Shown: piece by piece, positions 2,996-18,244 of the stretch | Numbering within the stretch: the first letter of the stretch is position 1 | Layout of the letters: the number at the start of each line of letters is the position of its first letter | IMG/VR virus record: IMGVR_UViG_3300018428_000028 | Span: 1 to 53,661 of that record | Origin: a virus | Direction: 5' to 3' (one strand) | DNA length: 53,661 nt | Notes under the pieces: model-generated | Databases searched by the model: none | What the model was told of the DNA's origin: nothing | The model's input: only the letters and a program-made list of their open reading frames with translations | Position numbers and translations under genes: made by a program

Positions 2996-3061
2996 TTTTA
3001 TAAACCTGGTAATTTAGATAATTATTAGTACATTATACAATAATTGGTAATTTTGTCAACC

Positions 3062-3529
3062 ATGCAAAGAAAGAAAACACATAGTAGAATAAAAAGTTTT
3101 AGAAAACAACTGCAACGGAACCTTGAGACCAGGGGCGACGTCCGAGAGTATAAACCTACAGGGATGGCAGTTGCACATTGGTTTACCAAATTAAACACAG
3201 TGCTTTTTGGTAATAGATTAGGGCGTGTTCATATTGAAATCAAAAAGTTACACAAGGACTGGGGCAGATGTGTGGCTCATTGGGATGGCAGACATGCACC
3301 AGCAGGAAGATTTAATCAACGCAAATTGCCACATCATATTGTTGAAGGATATTACATACAACTACATTGTAAATTTCCTACATGGAAAGACTTTATCGAA
3401 ACACTTGCTCATGAGATGGTGCATCTGTATCAGATGACTGTATTGAAGGATCCTTATTCAAATCACAATCAAAACTTCTATGCTTTTAGACCTAAGTTTC
3501 AGTCTGCTGGTTTAAAACTTTATCGTTAA
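3062..3529 (+). CDS. SprT-like zinc metalloprotease
   Basis: A 155-residue protein with the SprT/Spartan-type zinc site HEMVH at 117-121 and a probable third ligand at His135 in NHNQNFYAF. The family includes DNA-protein crosslink proteases, but phage members are untested. The ATG at 3062 is preferred over an in-frame TTG at 3044 because the family sequence begins after it. It is a lone plus-strand gene. Its 3' end overlaps the convergent gene by 38 bases. AT-rich DNA upstream holds a weak -10-like TATACA (about 3033) but no late octamer. Confidence 0.8.
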   Translation: MQRKKTHSRIKSFRKQLQRNLETRGDVREYKPTGMAVAHWFTKLNTVLFGNRLGRVHIEIKKLHKDWGRCVAHWDGRHAPAGRFNQRKLPHHIVEGYYIQLHCKFPTWKDFIETLAHEMVHLYQMTVLKDPYSNHNQNFYAFRPKFQSAGLKLYR

Positions 3530-4253
3530 ATTCCTTGTAAGTCATTAGACTGGAATTTCCAAGATCTGTTCCTGTCTGCAAGTAGTTAAGGAAATCCGGT
3601 GGGTTGTCGTGAACAATAGTAAAATGGCAGTAAGGTCTCATCTTCAGGTGATCCCTAAATTGTTTCAACCACTGTTCAAATATGGCATCACTATGCCTCT
3701 CGCCGTAGTTTTCCGTGTCCTGGTAGATATTGTTCAGTTCGCCCTTGCCGTATTCTCTGAAATCAAAACCTATTAGGTAAATGTTTCTGTGCCCATGCAC
3801 ACATGCAGTCCAGAACGCGGCGTTGCCTGATATCCAGTGAGGATTGTGTGGTATGAGGTGTAGCATGCCTTTTGATTGTTTCCTGTTGACTTCGAGAGCA
3901 GGTGCATAATGATTTGTCTTGAGACCCACCTCGTCCTCTACCATTTTCATTGTGATTTTTGTATCCACGCTAAAGATAAAATCTGGCAAGAAGTCTCTGT
4001 ACAGGGCATTGCATCCGTAAGTTTGTCCTGTGGCTTTGAGTGTGTTGAGGTCGAAACCTTTCCTCGATGGACCGTTACCTATCACGTAGGCATTGCCTCT
4101 CGGCTTGTTTTTGACTTTGTCTTCGTAGTATCCTGTTTCCTGTATTTTTTTACCGCCCCTTATGATTGTCTTAACAACAATGGTCTCGCCTTTGTACGTT
4201 TCAAATTCTATCGGTAGTATTTCATTCATTTTTCCTAAGTTTATTATTGTCAT
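3492..4253 (-). CDS. DUF115-like / Rossmann-type glycan protein
   Basis: A 253-residue protein starting at the ATG at 4253, which overlaps the upstream TGA as ATGA. A longer frame to 4295 exists but is less likely. The core AYVIGNGPSRKGFDL, then YGCNALYRDFLPDFIFSVD, then RNIYLIGFDF, matches the pattern of DUF115/MptE-like proteins, which include flagellin and cell-surface glycan modifiers. No GT DxD motif is obvious. As the last gene of the minus-strand cassette it is probably involved in the same glycan. Its exact reaction cannot be read. Confidence 0.6.
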   Translation of the reverse strand: MTIINLGKMNEILPIEFETYKGETIVVKTIIRGGKKIQETGYYEDKVKNKPRGNAYVIGNGPSRKGFDLNTLKATGQTYGCNALYRDFLPDFIFSVDTKITMKMVEDEVGLKTNHYAPALEVNRKQSKGMLHLIPHNPHWISGNAAFWTACVHGHRNIYLIGFDFREYGKGELNNIYQDTENYGERHSDAIFEQWLKQFRDHLKMRPYCHFTIVHDNPPDFLNYLQTGTDLGNSSLMTYKEFNDKVLNQQTET

Positions 4254-5122
4254 TTGAGGTATTTCTCCTGCAGTCGTTTTTTGATTCTTTGCCATGGCAA
4301 TCCCTGTCTAATCTCGTCTTCGAACCATTCAGTGTAGGCAAGCCTGTTGGCCCACTGCATTCTATTTGGCATAGCAGGTGTGTTTATGTCTGAAATTGAT
4401 AAGTTACCCACATCATGGCATAAACTAGATTGCGATACAAACACCGGAACTCCGTTTATCACTGACTCTATGGCAGGATTAGAACTATGGTTGATGATTG
4501 CCCACGCACGGCCTAGCACAGCCTTGAAGTCTGTGTCGTCGTATGTTTTGTAGTCTCGCCTCGGCAGACGTACTTTGACGTTCTTGAAATCACTTTCCTT
4601 AAATGGGATCTGATTTCGTGGATGTGGCCTCACTAGTATTGGACGAGATGTGTATTTTCTGATTTCTGCAATTTGGTTTTTGATCCAGGTGCCCATTCTA
4701 GGTAACCCCTTCCATTGTTCCGATTGATCATGTTGTCCACATATTACTATCATCTCTCCTGTTGGATTCCACGGCTTCAATTCGTGTCTAAACAATGGCC
4801 AACGTTTGTCATCAAACTCTTGATTGGCAAAATCTGCATCTCTGTTTATGCCATTGATTCCTATCTTGAAACTTTGATTGCGTCTTAGACCGCCCACTTC
4901 TATGACAACGACCGGTTTGCCTTCTGTCCTGTACTTTTCCCAGATTGGTCTGTAAGATTGCATCCTGCCTCGCCATAAAACGCTCCATATTACAGCCACG
5001 TCGGCGTTGGTCGACCTATTTTCGTAAACTTGGTCTCCGGCGTCACGAACGCTTTGGATGAATGCGTGAAAAATTGGTTTTGAATTCAATGGACCGTAGT
5101 CCGTCCATATTTCTAGTTTCAT
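4250..5122 (-). CDS. Capsule-type glycosyltransferase, paralogue A
   Basis: A 290-residue protein resembling GT-B-like capsule or CDP-glycerol-type transferases. Visible signatures are ILVRPHPRNQ near 158, NHSSNPAIESVINGVPVF near 213-230, and a C-terminal NRMQWANRLAYTEWFEDEIRQGLPW block. The same three-part pattern recurs in the genes at 8955, 9928 and 13239, so these form one paralogous group. Its ATG overlaps the upstream stop as ATGA. The donor and acceptor are unknown. Confidence 0.7.
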   Translation of the reverse strand: MKLEIWTDYGPLNSKPIFHAFIQSVRDAGDQVYENRSTNADVAVIWSVLWRGRMQSYRPIWEKYRTEGKPVVVIEVGGLRRNQSFKIGINGINRDADFANQEFDDKRWPLFRHELKPWNPTGEMIVICGQHDQSEQWKGLPRMGTWIKNQIAEIRKYTSRPILVRPHPRNQIPFKESDFKNVKVRLPRRDYKTYDDTDFKAVLGRAWAIINHSSNPAIESVINGVPVFVSQSSLCHDVGNLSISDINTPAMPNRMQWANRLAYTEWFEDEIRQGLPWQRIKKRLQEKYLK

Positions 5123-6060
5123 TTTACTACTGTCTGTACGTATTCGTATGTTTTTTTCAGTCCTTCTAGGAGTGGATAGTTTGGCTTCCAGCCTGTCAAT
5201 TTTTTAATTTTCGTATTGTCAGAATTTCTTCGCATACAACCAGCCGGTCCGGATGGAAGGTATGTCTTTTTTATTTTTTTCCCTGATATGTCGATCAGCA
5301 TGTCTGCTAATTGGTTCATGGTGATCGCTTCATCTGATCCCATGTTGATTGGTATTTGCACGTCATTTTCAATTAATTTGTCAAGCCCTATCATCAAGTC
5401 ATCAATGTAGCAGAAGGATCTAATTTGCGTTCCGTCACCCCAAATTTCAATTTCTCCAGGATCATTGGCTTTGATTATTTTTAGGCAAGTTGCCGCTACA
5501 ACTTTAGAATTTTCAAGCACATCACAGTGTGGACCGTACATGGCGTGGAATATAGGTAACGAAATTTTCATGCCATAACTTTTTGCGTATTCTTGTGCCA
5601 ATTGCATGTTGTATAATTTTTCCATTCCGTATATATTGCCAGCCGGCTGTGCAGGCCATATGTGTTCATCTTCATTAAGGTCAGGTCCGTTATGACCTTG
5701 AAAACTAGTGTTGTATATCATGGCAGACACAGCATATATAAAATGTGATTTATTTTTAGCCGCAAAATCCATTGCTTGTATTGTCTGAATAGGGTTACTT
5801 CTGCCAGTGCCAAGTTGAGCTGATCCAACATTTTTTGAATTTGGCACGTCAGCACTCAGGTGATATATCCTGTCAAAGTCGTTGTCTATTGTAATTCTTG
5901 ACTCCATGTCGTGTCCTACAAAATCATCAACAAAAACAGGATCACCCACTTTTAGTTTTTTATCGATTCCAGTGACATGATGTCCTTGTTTTTTTAGATG
6001 CTGTGCTAGATTTTTGCCTATGAAACCTTGGCAACCTGTTATAAGTGATCTCATAGCCAT
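5119..6060 (-). CDS. GDP-mannose epimerase-like SDR enzyme
   Basis: An extended short-chain dehydrogenase of 313 residues with the NAD motif GCQGFIG at 9-15 and the catalytic YGMEK. The second half closely follows GDP-mannose 3,5-epimerase (GME): WPAQPAGNIYGMEKL, WGDGTQIRSFCYIDD, NMGSDEAITMNQLA and NSDNTKIKKLTGW. At the position of the GME epimerising cysteine (SACIYP in known enzymes) this protein has SAMIYN, while the partner lysine (NSKVVAA region) seems kept. It may be a GME-fold enzyme with altered chemistry. An AGG sequence sits nine bases before the ATG at 6060; an ATG at 6054 is an alternative start. Confidence 0.75.
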   Translation of the reverse strand: MAMRSLITGCQGFIGKNLAQHLKKQGHHVTGIDKKLKVGDPVFVDDFVGHDMESRITIDNDFDRIYHLSADVPNSKNVGSAQLGTGRSNPIQTIQAMDFAAKNKSHFIYAVSAMIYNTSFQGHNGPDLNEDEHIWPAQPAGNIYGMEKLYNMQLAQEYAKSYGMKISLPIFHAMYGPHCDVLENSKVVAATCLKIIKANDPGEIEIWGDGTQIRSFCYIDDLMIGLDKLIENDVQIPINMGSDEAITMNQLADMLIDISGKKIKKTYLPSGPAGCMRRNSDNTKIKKLTGWKPNYPLLEGLKKTYEYVQTVVK

Positions 6061-6070
6061 ATTTACTAAC

Positions 6071-6943
6071 CTAATCTTTTAGTGTTTGCCAATATGGATG
6101 TGTCTGTTTAGTGGTAAGGTCTCTTTTTTTAGAGCTCATTGCAGACTTTCTTGTGTAACCTTTCATGTGGTCCATGTACTGTCCCAATTCTGAATTGATA
6201 AATGGATGCCTGGCCTTTCTTTCGCCCGCCCACCTGCCGTCATTTAGGTCTTCATTTTTTATTTTACCAGCCTGTTCCATTTCGATCCTGACAGCATCAA
6301 ACGTGAACGAGTCTGTGTACCCTGATATTGGAAAATGGTTTAGAAAACCCTTTTGTATGTTAAAAAATAAATCTTCTGTGTAGTACTGTTCCCATCTCTC
6401 AAAAAATTCGCCTGTGTATTTGTGTGCGGTGTTAAATGCGTAGTATCCAGTCTCAGAAAAACCTTTTTTTGGTCGGCCCAGATAAGACGTGAACGCTGTA
6501 TCTGGCATTATGTGTTCTAGCCAAGACATTGGGATCTTTTCAAATGTCAGTAGATCAGCATCCAAGAACCATAGCATGTCAGGTTTGGTCCTTTGCCAAG
6601 CGTCTATACACGCAAAAACTTTATAACTAAAACGCACTGCATCGTACACATATATCGAGGTGTCTTTGTCGAATCCTTTTTGCTCCTGTGTATTTTGTCG
6701 TATTCGAGGATTCAACATCGGGTCGTCTTTATGCCTGTTAATGAATTCTTGCAGTTTTGGTTGTGCCTGTAACAGATCTATGTTTTGCACACGAGGTGAT
6801 TTTATAGATTGGTTCATGTCGTCTGGATATAAAAGTATCTTGGCATGTTCGGGCCAGTTTTTGATAGTGCTTTCTACACACGGAACCACAGGGTTAGGAT
6901 GGTATTTCGTGCCCCAGGTTGTTGCGATTGTTAAACTTTTCAT
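6071..6943 (-). CDS. GT-A fold glycosyltransferase, paralogue 1
   Basis: A 290-residue protein starting SLTIATTWGTKY. It has the nucleotide-sugar DxD motif in MLWFLDADLLTF (DAD at 128-130) and DAVRFSYKVFACIDA before it, typical of GT-A transferases. The C-terminus ELGQYMDHMKGYTRKSAMSSKKRDL, then PYWQTLKD, is nearly repeated in the gene at 8098-8958. The two paralogues flank the ColD-like gene. It overlaps its upstream neighbour as ATGA. Sugar specificity is unknown. Confidence 0.75.
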   Translation of the reverse strand: MKSLTIATTWGTKYHPNPVVPCVESTIKNWPEHAKILLYPDDMNQSIKSPRVQNIDLLQAQPKLQEFINRHKDDPMLNPRIRQNTQEQKGFDKDTSIYVYDAVRFSYKVFACIDAWQRTKPDMLWFLDADLLTFEKIPMSWLEHIMPDTAFTSYLGRPKKGFSETGYYAFNTAHKYTGEFFERWEQYYTEDLFFNIQKGFLNHFPISGYTDSFTFDAVRIEMEQAGKIKNEDLNDGRWAGERKARHPFINSELGQYMDHMKGYTRKSAMSSKKRDLTTKQTHPYWQTLKD

Positions 6944-8097
6944 TTTGCAATACCACTGATTATTTCATACATCTGGCTGATCTCTTCTTGTATACCAACA
7001 CTTCCGTTGCCAACAAAAAATCCGTTTTCGTGTATGTCATCAGCCGACTCCGTTGTACCAGACACCATGTAGTCTAAGTTTGGCATAACTGGTTGTTTAA
7101 GAAAATTCCTCGATGCCAACGGTCTGTTCTGTATGCCTGCCTTAGACAATGCGTCTATCACTTCTGGCCGCCTTCCTTTTAGTTTTCCATCAAGCACTAT
7201 CCCAAATGTGAACCAACTGCTTTTACCGGTCTCCTGTTGTATCCTGCACCACGATTTGTTTGAGAACAAATTTAAAAAATGTTTGGCGTTGGCCAATCTA
7301 GTGGACATGATTGAATCCCATTTTGTAAGTTGGACAGAGCCAATCGCTCCACTCATTTCTAGAGGACGTAGATTGTATCCCGGAGTGGCAAATATAAAAT
7401 TATCATCAAATGCATTTCCTGTTTTTTGATACAATGAAGAATTGTCAGGCAATTCTCTTACCCAACCGTGTGCCCTCATACTCCTTAGGTAGTCCGCGTC
7501 TTCCTTGTCTCGGCACAATATCATACCGCCTTCCATTGTTTGTATGTGATGACTAAAGAAGAAACTGAATGAGCCGGCCAGGCCAAAGGTGCCCGTGTGT
7601 TGCTCGTTGAATTTAGCACCCATCGACTCGCAGTTGTCTTCTATAAGAACAAGGTTATGTTTATCGCAAATGCTTTTGATTGCTTGGTAGTCACAACTAT
7701 TGCCCAACAAATTTACTGGCATAATTGCACAGGTGTTTGGTGTAATCGCCTGTTCTATTTTGTTAACATCTATGTTCCATGTGTTTGGATCTACATCAAC
7801 AAAGTTTATCTTAAAGCCATTTTGTGCTATTGGGAAATAGGTAGTTGCCCAACCTACAACAGGAACAATTATGTCACCTGTCAGTTTGTATTTCCATTTT
7901 AAAAGGCTGAGCATCAAAAGGTTTGCGCTCGAACCAGAATTTACCATGATGGCATTGGGAGAGTGGAAAAGTTCTGCAAATTCATTCTCAAATTGTTTTA
8001 CATGTTTGCCCATGGTGTACATGTCCGTGTCAATCACTTTTTGTATTGCATCTAATTCTTCTTTGCCCCAAGTGGAGTATGCTAGTGGGTATTTCAT
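6940..8097 (-). CDS. ColD-like GDP-4-keto-6-deoxymannose 3-dehydratase
   Basis: A 385-residue PLP enzyme of the DegT/AHBA fold. The usual Schiff-base lysine is replaced by histidine: the motif reads SFFFSHHIQTMEGG, with His183-His184 where aminotransferases have Lys. This is the hallmark of ColD, the dehydratase that removes the C3 hydroxyl in colitose synthesis. Other matching stretches are the N-terminus YPLAYSTW, LIEDNCESMGA at 151-161 (Asp154 for the PLP pyridine), and PGYNLRPLEMSGAIG. Length fits ColD (about 388). It lacks the extra cysteines of iron-sulfur E1-type dehydratases. I read it as a deoxysugar 3-dehydratase rather than a transaminase. The exact nucleotide (GDP expected) is inferred. 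Confidence 0.85.
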   Translation of the reverse strand: MKYPLAYSTWGKEELDAIQKVIDTDMYTMGKHVKQFENEFAELFHSPNAIMVNSGSSANLLMLSLLKWKYKLTGDIIVPVVGWATTYFPIAQNGFKINFVDVDPNTWNIDVNKIEQAITPNTCAIMPVNLLGNSCDYQAIKSICDKHNLVLIEDNCESMGAKFNEQHTGTFGLAGSFSFFFSHHIQTMEGGMILCRDKEDADYLRSMRAHGWVRELPDNSSLYQKTGNAFDDNFIFATPGYNLRPLEMSGAIGSVQLTKWDSIMSTRLANAKHFLNLFSNKSWCRIQQETGKSSWFTFGIVLDGKLKGRRPEVIDALSKAGIQNRPLASRNFLKQPVMPNLDYMVSGTTESADDIHENGFFVGNGSVGIQEEISQMYEIISGIAK

Positions 8098-8958
8098 TTA
8101 TTTTTTGTCTCCTTGTTTTGCAAACGGGTTGTAGTCTTCAACCGTCTGCCAATATTGTTGGTCTCTTTTTACTCTAAGGTCTGATTTTGAACTTTTGCCC
8201 TTCAATTTCCTTTTTCCTTTCATGTGATCGACATATTCTCCTAGAACACTGTTCACGAAAACATGCAGTCCTTGTACTCCCGCACCGTGTCCTATGTCCA
8301 CGCCTTGGTCAGGAGCCACTCGCTGTAATACCTGCCAAAACAGATAACTGTCGTGCCATTCCAGCTCGTTGAATATTGTGTCATTAGTATATAGTTTTGT
8401 CCATTGGTGGATAAACTCTTTTATTTTTGGATGTCTCCTATTGTAGCATACCCAACCACACTCGGGATATGTTGGCCTCCCTAGGTAGTTTACAAGTTTG
8501 TCGTTCGGCAATAGATCCGTCACAAACTTTTTTGTTATCGGACGGAACGTGTAGGTGTCAGCATCAAGCCAAAGCAAGTAGTCGTTGTCGATGTTTTCAA
8601 TGGCGTGTGCAACACAAAAGACTTTGTGAGAAAACCTTACCGCGTCCCAAAGAAAGGAACCTTTGCCTCTGTCTAGGTCTCCTGCATTTGGCAATCTTCT
8701 TACTCCCCCAGGTATGGGTGTGGTCTCACCATTCGCCACAGGATCATTTTTATGGCGATTTTTGAATCTTACAAGTTCAGGGTTCACCGCTTCTGTGTCT
8801 ACGTATTTGACTTTTGGGTGTTCGAGTGTTGGCTTGTTTTTTTCGTAGTAGGCATAAAGTGTCACGTCATCGGGCCAATTGTCGATATGACTTTGAATCA
8901 TCCTATCAGCGTAGTTGTTTTTTGGTGGAAAAGTTGTAATTACTGCAAGACTCGTCAT
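8098..8958 (-). CDS. GT-A fold glycosyltransferase, paralogue 2
   Basis: A 286-residue protein starting at the ATG at 8958, which overlaps the upstream stop as ATGA. A longer frame to 9021 is unlikely. It carries LAVITTFPPKNNYADRM at the N-terminus, SFLWDAVRFSHKVFCVAHA, and the DxD motif in YLLWLDADTYTF (DAD at 132-134). The C-terminus VLGEYVDHMKGKRK, then QYWQTVEDYNPF, matches the paralogue at 6071-6943, indicating duplication within the cassette. It abuts the ColD-like gene directly. Donor sugar unknown. Confidence 0.75.
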   Translation of the reverse strand: MTSLAVITTFPPKNNYADRMIQSHIDNWPDDVTLYAYYEKNKPTLEHPKVKYVDTEAVNPELVRFKNRHKNDPVANGETTPIPGGVRRLPNAGDLDRGKGSFLWDAVRFSHKVFCVAHAIENIDNDYLLWLDADTYTFRPITKKFVTDLLPNDKLVNYLGRPTYPECGWVCYNRRHPKIKEFIHQWTKLYTNDTIFNELEWHDSYLFWQVLQRVAPDQGVDIGHGAGVQGLHVFVNSVLGEYVDHMKGKRKLKGKSSKSDLRVKRDQQYWQTVEDYNPFAKQGDKK

Positions 8959-9938
8959 AGTCCTAGTTTTTCTTTGAACCTTTTGTATACTGTGCCGTCT
9001 CTGATTTCTTTGATGCTCCACATCTTATAGCCAAGGTCATGCAACCATTGTGTCCTGTCCGGATATTCGGGCGTTTCGATCCTGTTTAGATCTTTGTTTG
9101 CTACAGGCCAACAAAGCGCAAGATCTGAGGTACAAAAGGTAGGTATCCCACGAACGCAAGAGTCGACGCTGGCAGTAGAATTGTGAGTAACAACAGCATG
9201 ACAATTAGTTATAGTATCTTGGAAATTGAATCTATAGTGCTTTTTTTCATCTCCGGCAAAATGTTTTTGTGTGAATTGTAGTTCTATATCGTCAGGAAAT
9301 TCTTTTCGCCTGTCGTCAATTGATGCCACATTATTTGGATGTGGCCTGACTATAAATTTTCTGTCTGTTATCGGTCTAAGTTTTTCATATACGCCGTTGA
9401 ACCATTCGATAGGGTCTAGCTCGTTCATGCTCCAGTTGTCTTTTGGCTGTAATACGAATATTATAGGGTCTTCTTGATTGGATTTACGCCATGGTTCATA
9501 TTTTACTTTGAATTTCTTACGCATCATTTCCCAACGATCACCTGGACTGTTGTCAGACAGGAAGTTCCCGTCATTCATCGGGGTGTACAAGGATACCCTG
9601 AAATGATGATCTGGTGACGTTGACACGTTACCAAAACTCGATAAAACACCACCGTCAAAAGTTATGAGAGGAATCTTCTTTGCCCTACAGTTGTCTGCAA
9701 GTTCTCTACGTCTGCCTTTGGTGTGGTGCATTTGTCGGTCACCGCCATAACCAAACATGGCCGCCATGGGTGCAGTCGGTGTCATTTCTCCTGGAACTGT
9801 TGGTCCAGTCCTGTGTTCATTGACTATAACTGCTTCATCTCCCGCGGCTTCTATGCCTTCCTTTAGGTGATACAACAAGTCCCAACTGTTGCCTTTTCTC
9901 CTATCTTTTACCGTTCTTCTAAAAATTTCAACTTTCAT
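8955..9938 (-). CDS. Capsule-type glycosyltransferase, paralogue B
   Basis: A 327-residue protein of the RPHP group. It has FIVRPHPNNVAS near 197, VTHNSTASVDSCVRGIPTF near 250-268, and the C-terminal block YPDRTQWLHDLGYKMWSIKEIRDGTVYKRF. These match the genes at 4250, 9928 and 13239. The N-terminal half contains PMAAMFGYGGDRQMHHTKG, possibly part of the acceptor side. It overlaps the next gene upstream by 11 bases. Function is inferred from the shared GT-B-like C-terminal fold; no substrate can be named. Confidence 0.65.
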   Translation of the reverse strand: MKVEIFRRTVKDRRKGNSWDLLYHLKEGIEAAGDEAVIVNEHRTGPTVPGEMTPTAPMAAMFGYGGDRQMHHTKGRRRELADNCRAKKIPLITFDGGVLSSFGNVSTSPDHHFRVSLYTPMNDGNFLSDNSPGDRWEMMRKKFKVKYEPWRKSNQEDPIIFVLQPKDNWSMNELDPIEWFNGVYEKLRPITDRKFIVRPHPNNVASIDDRRKEFPDDIELQFTQKHFAGDEKKHYRFNFQDTITNCHAVVTHNSTASVDSCVRGIPTFCTSDLALCWPVANKDLNRIETPEYPDRTQWLHDLGYKMWSIKEIRDGTVYKRFKEKLGL

Positions 9939-10743
9939 TAATCATTCTCCATGCTGTACCATTAGCCATTTCTTCCATGTTCCAATTGTTGTAGGCCAAA
10001 TTTGAAAATAAGGCAACTCTGTCACCGTATTTAGGCGATTCTATTTTACTGAAATCAGTTTCTGATATTGGTGCCGCCGCACAGTTGACCGGATCGCACA
10101 GAACGGGGACTCCGTTGGTAAGGCTCTCCACCATGGTGTTGGAATTGTACGTGACAGTGGCGAAATACTTGCTCCATTCTATTTTGCCTTGGTGATTTGT
10201 TGGCCTGTCCACTTTGACAGTGGCCCCGACATGATCTACTTCTATAGTTGGATTGTAGGGTTTCTCTCGCACTTCTATGGGTCTGTCTGTGTTGTTCTTC
10301 AAGGTGGCCATTGTTTTGTCAAGCCAGTCCGTGACCTGGAAGAAATTGCTTATAGCATTTGTTGGCGGGAGTACCAGTATGCTCTTTCCATTTTTGTTCC
10401 ATGGCTTAATATCTTTCTTGAAATATTTCTCATACCTGTCTGTCTTTGTTGTCGTGATCTTGTTTTGACAGTGTGCGTTTCGTGTGATGCGTAGCCAATG
10501 AGGTTCATCATGGCAGTTTTTGAAGTATCCATGGTCCATGAAATAGAAATCTTTTTGTTCTCTCTGGCACCACTTGTACACCTCTCCGGATCCTGCCAGT
10601 ATGCCATACATTGTGAGCTTTTCTTCAGGTAACCTAGTCAGGTCCCTGAACTGGTATATCGTGTTGGGTCCTGGCGTGCCTCTAACGAATGCGTCAACAT
10701 ATCTCTGGGTTCGCGGTTTGGTGGTGTGTATGCCTGCTATCAT
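9928..10743 (-). CDS. Capsule-type glycosyltransferase, paralogue C
   Basis: A 271-residue protein of the same group. It shows VTYNSNTMVESLTNGVPVLCD near 205-225 and YGDRVALFSNLAYNNWNMEEMANGTAWRMI at the end. The RPHP box is changed to VREKPYNP, so the sugar-nucleotide site may differ from paralogues A and B. It overlaps the gene upstream as ATGA and the one downstream by 11 bases. Probably one step in building the glycan. Confidence 0.62.
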   Translation of the reverse strand: MIAGIHTTKPRTQRYVDAFVRGTPGPNTIYQFRDLTRLPEEKLTMYGILAGSGEVYKWCQREQKDFYFMDHGYFKNCHDEPHWLRITRNAHCQNKITTTKTDRYEKYFKKDIKPWNKNGKSILVLPPTNAISNFFQVTDWLDKTMATLKNNTDRPIEVREKPYNPTIEVDHVGATVKVDRPTNHQGKIEWSKYFATVTYNSNTMVESLTNGVPVLCDPVNCAAAPISETDFSKIESPKYGDRVALFSNLAYNNWNMEEMANGTAWRMINES

Positions 10744-11483
10744 TTCAATTCTGTCACTTTATACATAGACTTGCCACTCTGTCTGCTGTACTCACCTATT
10801 ATGTTTACACTGCGCCTGTGTAGTTGCGGATGAATACGCGGTGTAACACTGTGTATTGCGTTTGGGGTAGAATTACAAAACATCACGAAAGTGTTTGGTT
10901 TGTAGGGAACAGTAGTGACAACGTCACCTAGGTCCTCGTCATATATTTGTCTACCTTTAGATTTGTCTACCTTTGTTATGTCGTTGATTGCTTTGTGTAT
11001 CTGGAATTCACCTCCTAAACTTTTATCATCAGGGTATGGCATGTAAAGCAATCCAGCGTACATCTCCATCGGGTTGTCGATGTGGGCGGTTCTGGACGTA
11101 TAGGTGATAGGCTTATGCATCACAGTCTGGCAGTCAGTCCAAACCTCTGCATCATTTTCTGCCCAACCCCGAGCTCCCAGTTTGCCTTGTAATGGTTCTA
11201 TGTAATCTTTGAATATATTTCTAACCTCATCAAAGAATTCAACCGATGTGTGATACTCACAGAAATTTCTCCATGTCTCAGACACTTCACCTTGTTTCAG
11301 CATAACGTCCGCTTTCAACCTGTAGCATACACCATTATCATAGGGTTTGGTAGATAGCATCTGTTCAGCAGGCCATTCATGTTCCAGTGTAGAGTAAAGA
11401 TCCCAAGGTAATGCGTCTTCTATTATAAAATGTGGATATGGATCAGTTACAACTGCCTTGAAATTTTTAAGTATGGAGTGCAT
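10740..11483 (-). CDS. 2OG-Fe(II) oxygenase family protein
   Basis: A 247-residue protein with the double-stranded beta-helix iron site of 2-oxoglutarate dioxygenases: His134-x-Asp136 in RTAHIDNPME, His211 in NAIHSV, and Arg224 in HRRSVNI as the 2OG-binding arginine. The ATG at 11483 shares one base with the upstream TGA; an in-frame TTG just before is less likely. Phage members of this family hydroxylate proteins, nucleotides or lipids. Its place inside a glycan operon suggests a sugar or peptide substrate, which is inference only. Confidence 0.78.
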   Translation of the reverse strand: MHSILKNFKAVVTDPYPHFIIEDALPWDLYSTLEHEWPAEQMLSTKPYDNGVCYRLKADVMLKQGEVSETWRNFCEYHTSVEFFDEVRNIFKDYIEPLQGKLGARGWAENDAEVWTDCQTVMHKPITYTSRTAHIDNPMEMYAGLLYMPYPDDKSLGGEFQIHKAINDITKVDKSKGRQIYDEDLGDVVTTVPYKPNTFVMFCNSTPNAIHSVTPRIHPQLHRRSVNIIGEYSRQSGKSMYKVTELK

Positions 11484-12571
11484 CAATCTAATATCTCCAT
11501 TATTTCCGGTATGTTGATTTTGAAGTCGATCATGTCACTAAATCTTTTTATGCCCTTAGGCCTCTTTCCGCCCTGCAAATGAATCCGTTCACTGTCTGCT
11601 ATATACAATTCATGTTTCAGACCCAGGTGGTAAGACAACAACGGGTATACCTTTTTGTGTAACATGTTCCTGTCCTGTATCTCTATGACCTTGGTTCCAG
11701 GATTACACCACAGAAGATTTGTTAGTCCTGCACCGTGTGCCGCTAGTACATGAGTCGATTCCGCAAACACACGCATTTGGTCTTCTATGGACATTGTTTC
11801 TAAACTTACTGTGTGCCATCCTTTTAATTTCAATAGTAGTTCGTCCGAATTAGTGATTCTTCTAGACGTTGCGCCCGGCCTCAGAACAACAATCTTTTTG
11901 TCGGGTTTGATTTCTTTTAGTTTAGGGAGTCCTTTGAAATGCCTTAGCCATTGAGCCAATGGTGGAACAATTACACCATCATCAGAATTGCTGAGGCTAG
12001 GAACAATTAGGTGTTTGAAATGCCAAGTTTCACCCTTTGGCATGACAACAATCTTCACATCTGGAAACAACGCTTTGCAAATTTTTTCAAGATAAGGACT
12101 TTTGTTTGCAAGTATAAAACAGTAATTGGCAAAATTAGTTGACCAACGCTTTTCAACTAGCCTGAACTTTGAAATCACATCTATCCAAATGTGCCATGGA
12201 TTGCCAACGCAGTATTCGTCAACTGGTAACCAAACATACAAGTTTGACTCGTTGAAGTTTTCGGTCACCTGTGGCAGTTTTATATCGACCGACTCGCCCC
12301 AGAATGACCATAGTTTATGTGTCTTACTGGGTTTGTGCTTGGTATTAGATCTTAGCCCCCAGATAAAGTCAGAGACCAGTTGATTGTCTCTGGTCAGCAA
12401 CACGGGACAACTATTGACTTTACAATCATAAAACTCCGAAACAAAAGTTGGTAAAGATTTAAATTTTGAGGGCACAGATGGATGATAGTTTACATCATAT
12501 TCGTAAGTTCGGTCTATTGTTTCCCAACGATCTGTAAAAAATCGTATGTCATTTATGTTTTTTGCTGGCAT
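11483..12571 (-). CDS. GT61-family (DUF563) glycosyltransferase
   Basis: A 362-residue protein ending in the GT61 signature: VVLRPGATSRRITN, then MSIEDQMRVFAESTHVLAAHGAGLTNLLWCNPGTKVIEI at about 256-297. GT61 enzymes transfer sugars such as xylose or those in capsule and LPS. It is the first gene of the minus-strand cassette. Its ATG lies only 21 bases from the start of the divergent plus-strand gene. A TATAGCATAAT-type sequence in that gap may serve as its promoter. Confidence 0.8.
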   Translation of the reverse strand: MPAKNINDIRFFTDRWETIDRTYEYDVNYHPSVPSKFKSLPTFVSEFYDCKVNSCPVLLTRDNQLVSDFIWGLRSNTKHKPSKTHKLWSFWGESVDIKLPQVTENFNESNLYVWLPVDEYCVGNPWHIWIDVISKFRLVEKRWSTNFANYCFILANKSPYLEKICKALFPDVKIVVMPKGETWHFKHLIVPSLSNSDDGVIVPPLAQWLRHFKGLPKLKEIKPDKKIVVLRPGATSRRITNSDELLLKLKGWHTVSLETMSIEDQMRVFAESTHVLAAHGAGLTNLLWCNPGTKVIEIQDRNMLHKKVYPLLSYHLGLKHELYIADSERIHLQGGKRPKGIKRFSDMIDFKINIPEIMEILD

Positions 12572-12592
12572 TCAAATAATAATTATGCTATA

Positions 12593-13264
12593 ATGACACA
12601 CATGACAATATTCTCAAACGGTTGCAGTTTTTTGACTGATCGACCAAAAGATGGAGTAGAAACCCACACCGCAAAAATTTTAGCCAAAGAGTATCAAACA
12701 GACTTGGTCAACCTGGCCATGGGTGGTAGGGGTAACGATCGTATTAGTTTCAGCACAAAGGTTTGGTTCGAGCAGAATGATACAAAAGATAAATTTGCAG
12801 TCATTGGTTGGTCTAGTTCTCATAGAAATGATTACGTGACAAATGATGGTTGGAAAAAAGACAGGATTCCCGGTACAGATTTGACTTGGAGAACATGGAA
12901 AACCCTAGACAACGTAAGTTTTCTAAGATCCAACAGAGGATGGGACATCGAAAACAACCTAATTATGAATTTTCTTGACAATGTGTTTGATTTACAGAAT
13001 TATTTTGAGCGCAAACGTATTCCGTACGTGATGTACAACAGCCTGCCAAATGATTTCGAAAGTGGTGTGTCGGATTTTGACGTGATAAAGAAAGCGATAA
13101 ACATGCAGAGATTTTTTAATCCAGGAATAAGTCAAATGGAATTTATCGCAGAAAAGAACTTGATTGTCAGTCCCAATGATCCACATCCATCCACGGAAGG
13201 GCATAGACAATGGGCAAACTTACTGAAAGAATTTATAGATGCTAACAATTTACGCTCCATTTAA
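12593..13264 (+). CDS. SGNH-like esterase or acyltransferase
   Basis: A 223-residue protein with SGNH blocks: nucleophile Ser12 in SNGCSFL, GGRGNDR at 44-50 supplying Gly and Asn, and DPHPSTEGH at 196-204 with the catalytic Asp-x-His. Such enzymes add or remove acyl groups on sugars. ATGs at 12593 and 12602 are both possible. A TATAAT box at 12589-12594 would start RNA near 12601, favouring 12602 for a leaderless message. It begins a three-gene plus-strand unit with a transferase and a methyltransferase. Confidence 0.75.
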   Translation: MTHMTIFSNGCSFLTDRPKDGVETHTAKILAKEYQTDLVNLAMGGRGNDRISFSTKVWFEQNDTKDKFAVIGWSSSHRNDYVTNDGWKKDRIPGTDLTWRTWKTLDNVSFLRSNRGWDIENNLIMNFLDNVFDLQNYFERKRIPYVMYNSLPNDFESGVSDFDVIKKAINMQRFFNPGISQMEFIAEKNLIVSPNDPHPSTEGHRQWANLLKEFIDANNLRSI

Positions 13265-14051
13265 AAATAAAAAAAGCAAGGCATGGGAAGTTTTTGAAGG
13301 AGTTCAAAAGTCCTGGCCCGACCAGGTGACGGTTTTAGACAACGCAAAACAATCACAAGCCGCTGACAATTCTATGTTTTGGGGATTTGTTGCAAACAAC
13401 TTACAAATGGTTAAAAGACTTGAGGCAAGAAGACAAAACTTTTGGTTTACTGATACCCCCTATTTTGGTAGGTTTGACAACAGCAACCTTAGGCCAGATA
13501 ATCATTTCTGGAGGATATGTAAAAACACTATACATGCAAGGTTTATCAAAGATTGCAGGTCAGATAGATTTGATCAATTCAAAATCAAAATTGCCGCTCC
13601 CACACTTAAAGGCAAACACATTTTAGTGTGCCCTAGCTCGGCAGGAATTCATAATTATTTGGACCAGGTCAATTGGACAACCAATACCATAGAATCACTG
13701 AAAAGATATACAGACAGACCGATCAGACTTCGACACAAGCCTAGGGGCAGGGGCACATCAGGACCAAGTGAGGCCAAGGTGCCCCTATCCGAGGATTTGA
13801 AGGACGCTTGGGCGTGTGTGACTAGTTGTAGTATCAGTGCAGTGGAGGCAGTATGTATGGGCGTGCCTGTTTTTTGCCATAGAAAAAGTTTCGCTGAACC
13901 CATGGGCAACGTGCACCTCGAGGATATTGAAGAACCATATTATGCTGACCCAGAGCCATGGTTGTACAGCCTTGCATATCAACAATTCACGCCCGAAGAG
14001 TTTGAAAATGGCACTGCTGTTGAGATATTGATGGACAAAGGAATTTTATAA
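13239..14051 (+). CDS. Capsule-type glycosyltransferase, paralogue D
   Basis: A 270-residue protein of the RPHP-type paralogue group. It shows VTSCSISAVEAVCMGVPVFCH near 194-214 and the C-terminal block YYADPEPWLYSLAYQQFTPEEFENGTAVEIL. The RPHP box appears as RLRHKPRGRG. Its ATG overlaps the upstream SGNH gene by 26 bases, so translation is probably coupled. It is the only member of the group on the plus strand, implying that the duplication was followed by an inversion or a separate insertion. Confidence 0.65.
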   Translation: MLTIYAPFKNKKSKAWEVFEGVQKSWPDQVTVLDNAKQSQAADNSMFWGFVANNLQMVKRLEARRQNFWFTDTPYFGRFDNSNLRPDNHFWRICKNTIHARFIKDCRSDRFDQFKIKIAAPTLKGKHILVCPSSAGIHNYLDQVNWTTNTIESLKRYTDRPIRLRHKPRGRGTSGPSEAKVPLSEDLKDAWACVTSCSISAVEAVCMGVPVFCHRKSFAEPMGNVHLEDIEEPYYADPEPWLYSLAYQQFTPEEFENGTAVEILMDKGIL

Positions 14052-14054
14052 AGA

Positions 14055-14660
14055 ATGATGTACGATTACCTAAGAAATTTAAAAATAAAAGAAAATTTCA
14101 CACCATCCAAGATTCTAGACATAGGAGCATGGAATGGTTTCTGGACCAAGAATGTAAAAAGCATTTGGCCGGATGCTCATTACACTTGCATAGAAGCAGG
14201 ACAAAAACACGAAGGAAGATTAAAAATGCTAACGGAAGACGTACATATCGCTGTGCTAGGAGACCAAGAGAAAGAAGTAAAAATTTATCTACGAGAGATC
14301 GACAAAGGAAATAGGAAAAAAATAACCTATACAAAAGGTTCCACGTTGTTTGGAATATTCAAAGACTATGAGACACGCCAGATGAAGACACTTGGACAGG
14401 TAATCGGCGAAGATGCGGATTACGATCTAATCAAGCAAGATGTACAAGGAGCAGAAATAATGATAATGCAAGGTGCTCCAAAAATTTTCCAGAGGGCAAC
14501 CTATGTTATTCAAGAAGTTAACATCCATCCCAACAAACAATTTCCAGACATGCCACACGAAAAACAAATGGATGATTTTATGACGAACTTGGGTTTCAAG
14601 AACTCACAAGTAATTGACACTCACGACGGAATAAACCAAATTGATAAAATTTACTTTTGA
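14055..14660 (+). CDS. FkbM-type SAM methyltransferase
   Basis: A 201-residue Rossmann methyltransferase. The SAM site is ILDIGAWNGFWTKNV near 19-33, followed by acidic IEAG. The FkbM hallmark DLIKQDVQGAEIMIMQGA lies near 131-148. FkbM proteins O-methylate sugars and polyketides, fitting the cassette. It starts three bases after the upstream transferase stop and overlaps the convergent gene by 10 bases. Confidence 0.8.
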   Translation: MMYDYLRNLKIKENFTPSKILDIGAWNGFWTKNVKSIWPDAHYTCIEAGQKHEGRLKMLTEDVHIAVLGDQEKEVKIYLREIDKGNRKKITYTKGSTLFGIFKDYETRQMKTLGQVIGEDADYDLIKQDVQGAEIMIMQGAPKIFQRATYVIQEVNIHPNKQFPDMPHEKQMDDFMTNLGFKNSQVIDTHDGINQIDKIYF

Positions 14661-15085
14661 AACTTACTTGTGATGCTGTTGTATGTGTCTAATGGCATAT
14701 CCAGTTGCACAACAGGTCTCCGTATGTATGGCTCTTGTTTTTCTTCGAACTTGATTTTTTTACTAGTCGTGATTAGGAAAGCGTTTGGAAAATACGTAAT
14801 AAGTTTGCCATCCAGATTTATCATTGTGCTCACGCCTCTGTCGCTTCGTTCTTTGAAAAACCATAAACACAGCACGTCGTTGTTTAGAGATATGTCGTTG
14901 ACGTCCTCAAAAAATGTGAAACCGGTCCTGTATTGTTTGTCAAAATCTTGCCAATGTTGGTGATTTAGGTTATTTTGATTTTCATACAACCTGTCATATT
15001 CTTTAGAGTCAAAGATAGAACTTGTATAGATGTGTTCTACAGGTTCCTTGAAGTAGTGTTGAGTTTTTATTTTTTCCCAGTTCAT
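14651..15085 (-). CDS. Unknown protein, possibly a degenerate 2OG-oxygenase fold
   Basis: A 144-residue protein of unknown family. Its last third, YFPNAFLITTSKKIKFEEKQ followed by RRPVVQLDM, lines up with the end of the oxygenase at 10740 (YKPNTFVMFCN..., HRRSVNII). No HxD iron motif is visible and the distal histidine is absent, so any such fold would be non-catalytic or divergent. The ATG at 15085 overlaps the upstream TAA as TAATG. Treat as hypothetical. Confidence 0.55.
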   Translation of the reverse strand: MNWEKIKTQHYFKEPVEHIYTSSIFDSKEYDRLYENQNNLNHQHWQDFDKQYRTGFTFFEDVNDISLNNDVLCLWFFKERSDRGVSTMINLDGKLITYFPNAFLITTSKKIKFEEKQEPYIRRPVVQLDMPLDTYNSITSKFQK

Positions 15086-15759
15086 TACGCACTGAATAGA
15101 TTGATTGCTTCCTTCTTCCAGTCGTCCGAGTACTCACAGTTTCTATATCCGTCGAACCACGGGCCACCTTCCGTGTAGTGCAGTATCTTGGGAGTGCCCT
15201 GTTCAGGCTCCCTGTACCATCCCACAAGCCAGTTGTAGTTGTGCGGCAGTGACCCTATATCGGAATCCTCGAGCCATGAGAACCTGTGTAGAAACTTGGG
15301 TGTCTGTTCATTCAGGAATTCGGGGGTAAGCATTTTGTTTTTTGGGTGTTCACAATTCCACAGAACCATGCTACTCCAATTCTTACGTGGGTACACGGAT
15401 TGTACCTGTCCGTCCATCTTTGTAGTCTCTTTTGGTGTGTAATCATGCTGAACACAAACAACTGCTTTGCTGGGATCCATAAACTTAACAAGATTGTGTG
15501 CAGGAACTTTCCATAAGAAGTCACAGTCACAAAAAACTGCCCATCCTTTGTAATCATTGAGGTAAGGTACAAAAAATCTTGTGAAAGTAAATTCGGTTGA
15601 TGCAAGTTTGTCTTTTTCTCGTGTGTATATTCCTTGCGCCCTCATGTCGTTCTGTTTGAGTGGTATCACTTCCGCTGAGGGGTCTCTGCGCTTGATGGAG
15701 TGTTCACACACTTGATATGCTATGTCTTCTCTGCTGTCCCAACCTACGTAAATTTTCAT
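15085..15759 (-). CDS. GT8-like glycosyltransferase
   Basis: A 224-residue protein starting at the ATG at 15759, which overlaps the HAD gene stop as ATGA; a longer frame to 15795 is rejected. The N-terminus KIYVGWDSREDIAYQVCEHSI is typical of GT8-like nucleotide-sugar transferases. A CDCDF motif supplies the metal-binding DxD, and ILHYTEGGPWFDGY supplies the late His-containing motif (HxxxGxxPW-like). Probably a retaining transferase on the same glycan. Confidence 0.75.
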   Translation of the reverse strand: MKIYVGWDSREDIAYQVCEHSIKRRDPSAEVIPLKQNDMRAQGIYTREKDKLASTEFTFTRFFVPYLNDYKGWAVFCDCDFLWKVPAHNLVKFMDPSKAVVCVQHDYTPKETTKMDGQVQSVYPRKNWSSMVLWNCEHPKNKMLTPEFLNEQTPKFLHRFSWLEDSDIGSLPHNYNWLVGWYREPEQGTPKILHYTEGGPWFDGYRNCEYSDDWKKEAINLFSA

Positions 15760-16385
15760 TTTCTTCCTGACACAAGTTTGTGAATGTCTTGCCAATTATT
15801 TACACGCACTATGTCTGGATGTTCGAAGTCACGGTTGTATTGATGGTCGATTAATATGGGGTTTAAACCGTAATTGAGCCCTGCTAAGGCGTTGTGAGGT
15901 TTATCCTCGACCCAATACAGCCCGGTTCCGTGGAATTCGGCTAAAGCACTGTCTTTGTCGGCTCCGGTGCCTAGTATATGGTAATTCACGAACACGTGGT
16001 CGCCAAACAGTTCTCCCAATCGTTTTTTACGCAATTCCTGTGCTGGCTTGTCTGATGTCTGAGATGTAATAGGTATGAATGTCCAACCTTCGGCGGCCAA
16101 CAGTTTGACCCATGTCTGTGACTCCGGCATTGGACGTTGTGTGCCCATCCATGCACTCCTATTGAATTCGCGTATTAATTTACGGATTTCTGTCTTAGAC
16201 AATCCAAAACGTTCGGCCATTTCATAGGTGTTTTCTTTGTCGGGTAGTAGCCTGTATGGATGATATCTTGCTCCTCGGGCGTCAAAAAGTGTTCTTTGCA
16301 ACATCCATTTGGTGAAATGATGTTCCCATTCTAGTAAAACCCCATCAACGTCCGTTAATATGATTCTGTTATTTGATGTCGGCAT
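15756..16385 (-). CDS. HAD-superfamily phosphatase
   Basis: A 209-residue HAD hydrolase. Motif I is DVDGV at 12-16, with Asp12 the nucleophile and Asp14 the general acid. PITSQTSDKP gives motif II, KDSALAEF is the lysine region, and YWVEDKPHNALAG is the acidic motif IV. A cap is inserted after motif I. Its substrate could be a sugar phosphate or a nucleotide. It overlaps uvsY by 17 bases and the downstream transferase by 4, joining the recombination genes to the glycan cassette. Confidence 0.8.
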   Translation of the reverse strand: MPTSNNRIILTDVDGVLLEWEHHFTKWMLQRTLFDARGARYHPYRLLPDKENTYEMAERFGLSKTEIRKLIREFNRSAWMGTQRPMPESQTWVKLLAAEGWTFIPITSQTSDKPAQELRKKRLGELFGDHVFVNYHILGTGADKDSALAEFHGTGLYWVEDKPHNALAGLNYGLNPILIDHQYNRDFEHPDIVRVNNWQDIHKLVSGRK

Positions 16386-16830
16386 CTTCCATTCCCGCGA
16401 CTCTCAGTTTTACAATGTTTGTGATCTGCCATTGCTTCTGATCAAGTCCTTTGGTTATGCCCAGCCATTGGTTACGTAGTAAAGCAAAATCGTTGACAAT
16501 CTTTGTTAGGTCCACAACGTCGTCCTCGCCGTCAACATATTTTTCTGCGTCTCTGCTTGACAGTGCCCGGTTGTAGTTCTCTAAGAATTTTTTAAAAGTT
16601 TTTGACCTCAATCTTCTAAGTTCTATATTTAGGTATTCAAGTATAGCCTCTAGTTGTTGAAGTTGTCCAAAACGTTCTTCTACTATACCTGGCAATGCCG
16701 CTGATGCTTTTTCAAGATTTCCGTATATTCTGCATTGTTTCTTTGCTTCGATTAATTCTTTGTCAAAGTATGCTGTGCAATCTGGAATCTTATCTAGTGA
16801 TCTGCTTACTTCAAAATACCAATTAGTCAT
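16369..16830 (-). CDS. uvsY: UvsY-like recombination mediator
   Basis: A 153-residue helical protein. The ending RNQWLGITKGLDQKQWQITNIVKLRVAGMEDA follows T4 UvsY (YWGILLDFCSGALDAIKSRSF region) in pattern. UvsY loads UvsX on gp32-coated single strands. I chose the ATG at 16830, giving an 8-base overlap with the upstream gene; the frame extends to 16857. Its place just after uvsX supports the call. Confidence 0.75.
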   Translation of the reverse strand: MTNWYFEVSRSLDKIPDCTAYFDKELIEAKKQCRIYGNLEKASAALPGIVEERFGQLQQLEAILEYLNIELRRLRSKTFKKFLENYNRALSSRDAEKYVDGEDDVVDLTKIVNDFALLRNQWLGITKGLDQKQWQITNIVKLRVAGMEDADIK

Positions 16831-17059
16831 CTTCACCGTATCCGTCTGACTCTTCATCGTCTTCTACAAACACGGTCCTAATCGCTTCTTCAAGTTTAGG
16901 GTCGTATTCTGCTGATGCTTTGATTTCGTCGTGCTCAACACCGATGTCTTCTAAACTTTTTATGAAGTCAATTGCCATATCTGATTTTTGTCTTTCCGGT
17001 ACGTAGTGTATAATCGATGTCCATAGACGTTCAATATCTTCGTGTGTAAAATCAATCAT
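16823..17059 (-). CDS. Small acidic protein between uvsX and uvsY
   Basis: A 78-residue protein starting at the ATG at 17059, overlapping the uvsX stop by 8 bases. It begins MIDFTHEDIERLW and ends in an acidic tail, DDEESDGYGEDD. I do not recognise a family. Tight overlaps with uvsX and uvsY suggest a job in recombination or in regulating that complex. An acidic tail might mimic DNA or contact UvsX, which is speculation. Confidence 0.7.
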   Translation of the reverse strand: MIDFTHEDIERLWTSIIHYVPERQKSDMAIDFIKSLEDIGVEHDEIKASAEYDPKLEEAIRTVFVEDDEESDGYGEDD

Positions 17060-18113: not shown

Positions 18114-18123
18114 AATTTATTTC

Positions 18124-18228: not shown

Positions 18229-18244
18229 ACTCTATATTACTACA

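Follow-up and report, generated by a model that had tools for sequence, protein, structure and literature searches.

Genes between uvsY and uvsW

The window analysed here is the whole virus record of 53,661 bases, and this study concerns a block of genes, designated g1 to g16, that lies between the recombination genes uvsY (16369-16857, minus strand; phrog_231, E 1.4e-14) and uvsW (203-1666, minus strand; 48-53% identity to the uvsW/helicase of five cultured jumbo phages). An earlier note on this DNA had correctly put the block at 3492-16385 and had described it as 15 mostly overlapping genes between uvsW and uvsY. Sixteen open reading frames (ORFs) were counted here, the HAD gene adjoining uvsY included, and they occupy 99.7% of the stretch. 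At the junctions up to uvsY, counted with chosen starts for g6, g11, g15 and uvsY, 12 of 16 overlap, by 1-46 bases rather than the 1-26 bases given before, and four have gaps of 0-21 bases. Both uvsY and uvsW flank the block, but on the uvsW side two genes intervene: p442, which encodes a 442-amino-acid protein of no assigned function (1667-2995, minus strand), and a gene for a SprT-like metalloprotease at the block edge (3062-3529, plus strand; PF10263, 28.7 bits against a cut-off of 25.6, on ORF 3044-3529). Thirteen of the 16 ORFs have the orientation of uvsX-uvsY-uvsW; g11-g13 are opposite, and g10 and g11 diverge across a 21-base gap (12572-12592), a putative divergent promoter with an AT-rich element that was also seen by eye in relatives. 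The G+C content of the block (0.414) did not mark it as foreign relative to other parts of the window (0.422 in uvsY-gp32, 0.387 in uvsW-p442 and 0.440 in the structural part).

The proposal that this region is a glycan-building cassette was supported. Profile searches, fold, motif and homology identified most of the genes as sugar enzymes, and the block is almost certainly a glycan (oligosaccharide) locus. Nine candidate glycosyltransferases were recognized from sequence, in agreement with the earlier expectation of at least eight: one exceeds a curated cut-off, four are called from fold and homology, and the remaining four from a motif, an annotation or a weak profile. Curated Pfam cut-offs were exceeded by g3, g5, g10, g13 and, barely, g16; for the transferases other than g10 the evidence is a fold, a motif, homology or the annotation of homologues.

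The transferase above its cut-off is g10 (11483-12571, minus strand), a GT61 enzyme (PF04577, 83.4 bits; cut-off 27). Four GT-B-type candidates, g2 (4250-5122, minus strand), g7 (8955-9938, minus strand), g8 (9928-10743, minus strand) and g12 (13239-14051, plus strand), form one family (blastp E 7e-17 for g12-g2 and 5e-19 for g8-g7). The AlphaFold2 model of g12 (pLDDT 87) was nearest to KpsC/WbbB, which are beta-linked 3-deoxy-D-manno-octulosonic acid (Kdo) transferases (Foldseek E 3.1e-6). Against KpsC (6mgd) it gave Z 11.9, a root-mean-square deviation of 4.3 over 225 residues and a TM-score of about 0.5, although sequence identity to g12 is only about 10%; the VIA-align comparison covers chains within Foldseek's top 1000. 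The predicted fold of g12 is thus KpsC/WbbB-like, of the GT-B type. A profile of the four paralogues searched against solved structures gave only two matches, both exodeoxyribonucleases (E 0.08-0.09). In Pfam the family matched mainly DUF6716, a putative-glycosyltransferase model, weakly and in 14 of 33 members.

The paralogues g4 (6071-6943, minus strand) and g6 (8098-8958, minus strand; blastp E 4e-47) are GT-A-like candidates with a DAD motif. Their family alignment has an invariant Asp pair, and the Pfam GT2 model was touched, weakly, by 4 of 19 members. The start of g6 was set at 8958; a longer ORF, to 9021, overlaps g7. The g15 product (15085-15759, minus strand) is GT8/GT24-like (phrog_28018, E 1e-57), with a DCD motif invariant in 11 of 11 sequences, and some of its phage homologues are annotated as glycosyltransferases. 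Profiles of the g4/g6 family and of g15 found no solved structure. The g1 product (3492-4295, minus strand) is a probable glycosyltransferase, GT42/CstII-like or MptE-like (PHROG alpha-2,3-sialyltransferase, E 0.0026; CstII profile, E 0.01; Pfam MptE-like, E 0.0029, below cut-off). Its GT42 link rests on these weak profiles because its structure model, built from a 16-sequence alignment, was unusable (pLDDT 39.6).

The remaining genes are of several types. The g3 product (5119-6060, minus strand) is an extended short-chain dehydrogenase/reductase (SDR; Pfam Epimerase, 108.8 bits), and g5 (6940-8097, minus strand) encodes a ColD-like pyridoxal phosphate (PLP) enzyme (Pfam DegT/DnrJ/EryC1/StrS, 265.9 bits). 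The g9 product (10740-11483, minus strand) resembles 2-oxoglutarate (2OG)-Fe(II) oxygenases (PF13640, E 0.0026, below cut-off). The protein encoded by g11 (12593-13264, plus strand) matched DUF6071 (E 1e-4, below cut-off) and is called SGNH-like here, a label that we take from its motifs; its longest ORF begins at 12482, the ORFs of most relatives have about 220-240 amino acids, and the hydrophobic start of the longest ORF is probably not translated. An FkbM-type methyltransferase is encoded by g13 (14055-14660, plus strand; PF05050, 37.7 bits, cut-off 22.7), and a 144-amino-acid protein with no Pfam or PHROG match, for which a 12-sequence family alignment was made, by g14 (14651-15085, minus strand). 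The gene adjoining uvsY, g16 (15756-16385, minus strand), encodes a HAD/NT5C-type phosphatase (PF06941, 25.3 bits, cut-off 24.8).

Constant frame and exchangeable modules in related viruses

Forty-two viral records were taken for comparison. uvsY was found in 32, uvsW in 38 and both in 30, which gave 30 uvsY-uvsW intervals, among them that of the window's virus. Four pairs reach 98% identity or more, so that 26 intervals are distinct; in two (L205 and L210) uvsY is cut. Most records were picked by uvsY or uvsW and not by block content. The best 80 uvsY loci were all 87-99% identical to the uvsY of the window, indicating a common lineage, and a scan of viral contigs with uvsW likewise gave at least 80 loci. 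The uvsY-uvsW distance was 10.8-19.2 kb in 29 of the 30 intervals; in L188 (record G005), which is cut before uvsW, it was about 20.1 kb by coordinates.

Clustering of the 593 interval ORFs revealed a constant frame: g16, g15, g12, g8, g10, g7, g6, g2, g1 and the SprT-like gene were present in all 30 intervals, and eight of these are transferases. p442 was present in 29 intervals, plus one cut copy, and g11 in 28. The remaining content varied: g14 occurred in 16 intervals, g13 in 15 and g9 in 13. Further interval genes were a second FkbM-like family (23 intervals; 5 of 23 best matched g13, the rest were assigned by eye), an asparagine-synthase-like (AsnB) protein (13), a GT2-type protein (10), another SDR (9), a second 2OG-like family (9, by eye), a sulfotransferase (7), GDP-mannose 4,6-dehydratase (GMD; 6) and two radical-SAM-like families (5 and 4, by eye). 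A Pfam check of one member each confirmed AsnB, GT2, SDR, sulfotransferase and GMD. ColD occurred in 2 of 30 intervals, which is not an unbiased frequency because both were first met through a ColD scan. Among the frame genes, g15 showed 79-92% identity in other intervals, and g8 fell into two allele groups, with about 75% and about 40% identity to the window.

One ColD locus, L002, was 98.5% identical to the window over 216-14052 and 69% identical from 14043, with about 620 extra bases at the joint; the alignment thus places a clean mosaic edge at g12/g13. Between the window and L002, dN/dS was 0-0.26 in 14 genes (g1-g12 and both uvsW-side genes), with few changes in each. Against the more distant L187, dS was saturated in 9 of 16 genes, and the other seven had dN/dS of 0.03-0.20. 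The mosaic edge together with purifying dN/dS indicates that the genes are both exchanged and selected, and the low dN/dS values and the presence of the frame in every interval, 29 of them from other records, exclude chance as an explanation of the observation.

The earlier note had also considered that every relative might carry the same block as universal core. This holds only in part: all 30 near-relative intervals have the frame, but at this place it is absent from all five cultured jumbo relatives examined, and content outside the frame varies. The uvsY-uvsW spacing is 0.03-2.8 kb in Sinorhizobium phage Phosso, Vibrio phage 2.275.O, Xanthomonas phage XbC2 and Pseudomonas phage Paride and about 6 kb in Agrobacterium phage Atu_ph07; no block protein was found in these five stretches (tblastn, E 1e-3; five family profiles). 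The HAD gene gave no match in the five regions either, and the idea that it belongs to this stretch in the cultured jumbo phages was rejected. Contigs at a greater distance, with uvsX 75-76% identical, have members of these transferase families beside uvsY, and in L230 and L231 they lie between uvsY and uvsW. L230 and L231 are 335-kb and 153-kb contigs of the metagenome-assembled genome (MAG) Neomarinimicrobiota RS350 that carry the same phage region and locus, apparently a duplicated, binned large phage.

Sugar genes of other aquatic phages were compared with the block. Pelagibacter phage Mosig EXVC030M, a different phage of 141 kb, has neighbouring genes of the g6/g4, g15 and g12/g8 families beside methyltransferase and sulfotransferase genes; its transferases are fewer and lie beside ribonucleotide reductase genes, not between uvsY and uvsW, and no ColD match was found in the 16.6-kb stretch compared. 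Moraphages, a lineage of large aquatic phages, have four transferase orthogroups in their conserved set; they are linked to Bacteroidota, and the sections of the report that deal with these genes describe no fixed cassette (PMC12619734). In marine phages, according to the relevant sections of two reports, sugar genes are located within a host-recognition island, form small clusters or are spread over one phage genome (PMC7029224, PMC9602691). Glycan islands of marine myophages are already known; a fixed site and a constant frame with swapped modules are new as far as our literature searches go.

Several further features of these viruses were noted. p442 was 62-69% identical in other intervals, whereas uvsW of the same records was mostly 89-97% identical, marking p442 as a fast-changing protein at the block edge. 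A FabI-like short-chain reductase (family assigned by eye) lies inside the block of one relative (L214:1763-2551). A 91-kb record of the window's own virus, G001, holds a second island (L183, G001:72000-91411) that includes homologues of the block's GT-B and GT-A genes, a nucleotide-sugar dehydrogenase and an SDR; FkbM-like, sulfotransferase-like and several radical-SAM-like genes, an SGNH-like gene and a gene for an FTR1-like membrane protein were recognized there by eye. Beyond uvsW, the same record has five genes for an ABC transporter of the branched-chain amino acid/urea type (L182:11210-15813; a binding protein, two permeases and two ATPases, the NCBIfam matches listed all being below cut-offs), which sits between a DnaE-like polymerase gene and methyltransferase-like phage genes. 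The viral contig L304 has all five transporter genes in order (77-91% identity); none of the seven flanking genes compared was matched in its 13-kb locus.

The g5-g4-g3 trio and its predicted sugar

One module of the window consists of g5, g4 and g3. The g5 product aligned to Escherichia coli ColD over positions 2-380 (2gms, E 1.6e-111, 376 bits), compared with 156 bits (E 1.1e-44) for the E1/RfbH-type structure 3bcx and 134 bits (E 5.3e-38) for the best aminotransferase. It keeps a histidine at the diagnostic position of ColD (SHH aligned to 2gms), which we take to be residue 188; the entries 3b8x and 2r0t, presumably point mutants, have N and K there. A histidine in place of the PLP lysine is the mark of a 3-dehydratase and not of an aminotransferase, and an ordinary aminotransferase was therefore ruled out. 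The SHH motif was present in all seven loci with at least 79% identity, the own virus included. The best NCBIfam match of g5 was RfbH (245 bits, below the cut-off of 423), and no ColD model was among the NCBIfam matches listed. Because the closest relative of this DegT enzyme is ColD and the histidine is kept, g5 is predicted to be a GDP-4-keto-6-deoxymannose 3-dehydratase and probably leads to a 3,6-dideoxyhexose.

Among solved structures, g3 was nearest to the GDP-mannose 3,5-epimerase (GME) of Arabidopsis (2c59, E 3.6e-49, full length). The GME motif SACIY is changed to SAMIY or SAMMY in 5 of 5 loci, so that the catalytic Cys, presumably Cys145 of the Arabidopsis enzyme, is replaced by Met; because of this replacement g3 was not classed as a GME. 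Reading of the motifs ruled out both a true GME and a 4,6-dehydratase, the latter by what we take to be the dehydratase motif. The best NCBIfam match was GDP-L-fucose synthase, at 80 bits far below the cut-off of 500.

In the proposed pathway, GMD, made by the host or encoded elsewhere in the phage, would convert GDP-mannose to GDP-4-keto-6-deoxymannose, from which g5 would remove O-3. The g3 enzyme would complete the sugar, perhaps as a 4-ketoreductase without the C5 epimerase step, since its Cys is lost, and g4, which travels with g5 and g3, would transfer the resulting 3,6-dideoxyhexose. In bacteria the colitose pathway consists of GMD, ColD and ColC. The phage module resembles it in that g5 matches ColD over nearly its full length with the histidine kept, but no GMD was found beside g5, the partner g3 is GME-like, and profile searches with two export-pathway families found no O-antigen export genes. 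Cyanophage S-SCSM1 carries GMD and a GDP-mannose 3,5-epimerase together with several transferases; as far as the relevant part of that report goes, its route is of the fucose/galactose type with a fucose synthase and no ColD, and its epimerase is 29.8% identical to g3 (PMC9602691).

The order g5-g4-g3 was kept in all five loci long enough to show the trio (L002-L006), at two genomic places: inside the uvsY-uvsW block in L002, L003 and L004 (the own virus), and elsewhere in L005 (G003) and L006 (G002). In G003 the trio lies about 23 kb from a uvsW that the end of the contig truncates. Because L005 and L006 share 99.9% identity and L002 is 98.5% identical to L004 over the trio part, the five loci stand for three virus types. 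From these loci the trio appears to be rare and to move as a unit. Two further loci, L007 and L008, end within ColD, and L009 holds a distant DegT enzyme (31%). A search of 50,697 phage records gave 86 matches to g5, all below 60% identity, the best among the 30 of 86 matches listed having 34%. The literature matches listed included no description of a ColD encoded by a phage or of the present locus, and among those on phage and colitose no virus-coded 3,6-dideoxyhexose pathway was apparent by title. As far as these searches go, ColD in a phage is new.

Host, acceptor and meaning of the glycan

The phage collection was also searched with other block proteins. The best or only cultured-phage matches of g1, g4/g6, g7 and g12 were from Pelagibacter phages, all weak (26-50% identity in the best rows). 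g1 had only three matches (HTVC008M twice and Mosig, covering 23-49% of g1), and g4 and g7 had two each (Mosig and one uncultured phage). g12 had fourteen, Mosig first, and g15 had eighteen, a Synechococcus phage first and Mosig second; most g12 and g15 matches were from Caulobacter phages. Homologues of g15 about 50% identical occur in many marine alphaproteobacterial single-cell genomes. In the best 80 of 93 g15 loci, seven were phage contigs, and the other 73, which include betaproteobacterial and other loci, had g15 alone outside any such block; in L257, titled Pelagibacteraceae, the homologue has an ordinary chromosomal setting. The nearest uvsX relatives infect Sinorhizobium and Agrobacterium. 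Binning was rejected as a guide to the host; phage contigs with the locus or its edge were binned into MAGs that bear the titles Pelagibacter, Rickettsiales, Verrucomicrobia, bacterium, Euryarchaeota and Neomarinimicrobiota. The host is likely alphaproteobacterial, and SAR11 is a guess at even odds. The titles of the MAGs with relatives' contigs and the Pelagibacter phage matches suggest that the virus is probably marine.

The earlier suggestion of a complete O-antigen or capsule locus was not borne out. Profile searches covered 30 of 43 records, all fragments, with the interval records G017, G024 and G030 among the other 13. PF02397, the initiating sugar-phosphate transferase, was found in 0 of 30 records as against 9 of 14 control genomes, the WecA-type family being outside this search, and the flippase family PF01943 in 0 of 30 as against 13 of 14. 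None of the 593 interval ORFs exceeded a 19-residue hydropathy of 1.8 (highest 1.72), whereas two permeases and a binding protein of the 91-kb record reached 2.4-2.6. Seven ORFs lay at 1.6-1.8; among them were g11, whose start is doubtful, and soluble members of transferase and SDR families.

Timing signals were sought in the window. The motif WATAAATA, of a late-promoter class that we take from T4, has eight copies in 19363-53661, near starts of head, tail or unassigned genes, and none in 1-19362; the 30 intervals (470 kb) have four in total. Eight copies in the whole window compare with 3.86 expected, a number reached in 4 of 100 shuffles. Neither the exact T4 late promoter TATAAATA (1 found, 1.46 expected) nor WTAAATAC (5 found, 4.14 expected) was enriched. 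The late-motif argument is only suggestive because the block is without spacers and the motif variant was chosen after seeing the sequences; at that strength, these sequence signals lean away from a virion role. Among the genes that WATAAATA precedes are those for the tail tube and the tail sheath, and it may be the late promoter of this phage; at 26217-28306, two neighbouring proteins of 206 and 470 amino acids match tail tube families. A perfect TTGACA-16-TATAAT box lies at 3032-3059 on the minus strand, ahead of p442-uvsW. Promoter and terminator scans stayed near the shuffled level (64 versus 47 and 17 versus 14.9).

We favour, with a probability of about 0.47, the reading that a fixed frame of eight soluble transferases, with exchangeable sugar modules, extends the lipid A-core of the host. 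The chain would be built on lipid A-core at the inner face of the host membrane, as in bacterial lipooligosaccharide (LOS) loci, and the glycan would leave by the host MsbA/Lpt route, changing the surface of the infected cell. The changed surface would exclude rival phages or stop progeny from re-adsorbing. Soluble transferases can extend lipid A-core in this way, and LOS outer-core loci of the Campylobacter type hold peripheral transferases, a GT42-like one included, and no polymerase or flippase. The block likewise has several peripheral transferases without membrane proteins; it differs in its location in a virus, and the GT42 link of g1 is weak. Lipid A-core as the acceptor, with export by the host, has by itself a chance slightly below even. 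The transferases of pelagimyophages, which include GT8-like genes, are argued to be tools for altering the host surface by modifying the O-chain, in the part of that report concerned with them, which also describes restriction systems as nearly absent in SAR11 (PMC7029224).

Several points weigh against this reading. The acceptor is an inference, the data give no sign of lipopolysaccharide binding, and the host assignment is not firm. A lytic phage has little time to replace the surface sugar. KpsC and WbbB, to which the fold of g12 comes closest, belong to capsule and O-antigen pathways, and the profile search for an export pathway covered two families only. The NCBIfam ties of g5 and g3 are distant and are not to ColD or GME, and GMD was found neither in the window, nor in the 91-kb record of the same virus (both fragments), nor in either ColD interval; it was found in six other intervals, and one member tested gave 392 bits to PF16363 and 401.7 to NCBIfam gmd, just under the cut-off of 415. 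The block has almost no intergenic DNA in which a motif could lie, and the WATAAATA variant was chosen after the upstream sequences had been viewed, so that its enrichment in the window is partly selected, the 30-interval count being a second look. In Caulobacter phage C1 (L181), a tail fibre gene is followed, 5-6 kb downstream, by an FkbM gene and unannotated transferases that belong to two of the block's families; an unnamed 4.9-kb gene and one or two smaller unnamed ones lie in between.

This last arrangement speaks for a virion role, in which the enzymes would glycosylate the phage's own capsid or fibre proteins in the cytoplasm and so shield or tune the particle. Virion proteins are glycosylated in this way by chlorella viruses and by some actinobacteriophages, and Freeman and colleagues reportedly described this in mycobacteriophages in 2023. 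The lack of any strongly hydrophobic protein and of both export-pathway families also fits. The block is embedded in recombination genes and not in structural genes, and it lacks the late-promoter-like motif that precedes the latter. A protein glycan would rarely call for as many as eight or nine transferases, but the chlorella viruses show that such a number is not excessive. We consider a virion role unlikely. The location beside uvsX, uvsY and uvsW and an early-type expression context would suit hypermodification of phage DNA with a complex glycan against restriction, as would the 2OG oxygenase in 13 of 30 intervals; Pyle and colleagues are said to have found in 2024 transferases that add diverse glycans to viral DNA. 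Yet thymidylate synthase/hydroxymethylase (PF00303) and C5-cytosine methylase (PF00145) were found in 0 of 30 records, again fragments, as against 9 and 10 of 14 controls, and accessories of the FkbM, sulfotransferase, SGNH and AsnB kinds commonly go with surface glycans. Were SAR11 the host, restriction would seldom be met, according to the part of the pelagimyophage report noted above (PMC7029224). We consider DNA as the acceptor improbable.

The accessory amidotransferase of the asparagine-synthase type, sulfotransferase and GMD genes could instead mean that the block makes a free or lipid-linked metabolite or an exopolysaccharide that aids the infected cell, by grazing escape or by floc or particle formation. 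Such genes resemble exopolysaccharide decoration. No strongly hydrophobic protein resembling a polymerase or exporter was found in the intervals, and neither PF02397 nor PF01943 was found in the records searched, so that we give this explanation little credence. Mosaic boundaries and a variable gene pool would also be expected of a transient load of unselected, recently captured genes without function in infection. The presence of the frame in all 30 intervals and dN/dS of 0-0.26 in 12 block genes against L002 make such a load very improbable.

A wider proposal, which we put forward tentatively and with the odds against it, is that the uvsY-uvsW site is a viral 'serotype locus', in which a frame of eight transferases and swapped modules (the ColD trio, GMD, sulfation, amidation and methylation) rewrite the outer sugar of an alphaproteobacterial, perhaps SAR11, host or of the virus's own particle. 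The ColD trio makes a definite chemical prediction that can be checked with a small enzyme set. The site also offers a testable system, in which it can be asked which sugar is made, which acceptor receives it, and whether module swaps track the host or competitor phages. Across a common lineage, a single genomic position houses a large gene set whose frame stays constant while other parts are interchanged, an organization also seen in the surface-polysaccharide loci of bacteria. If the proposal is true, each virus would give its host or its particle a new antigenic type, and the virus of this window would do so through a 3,6-dideoxyhexose.

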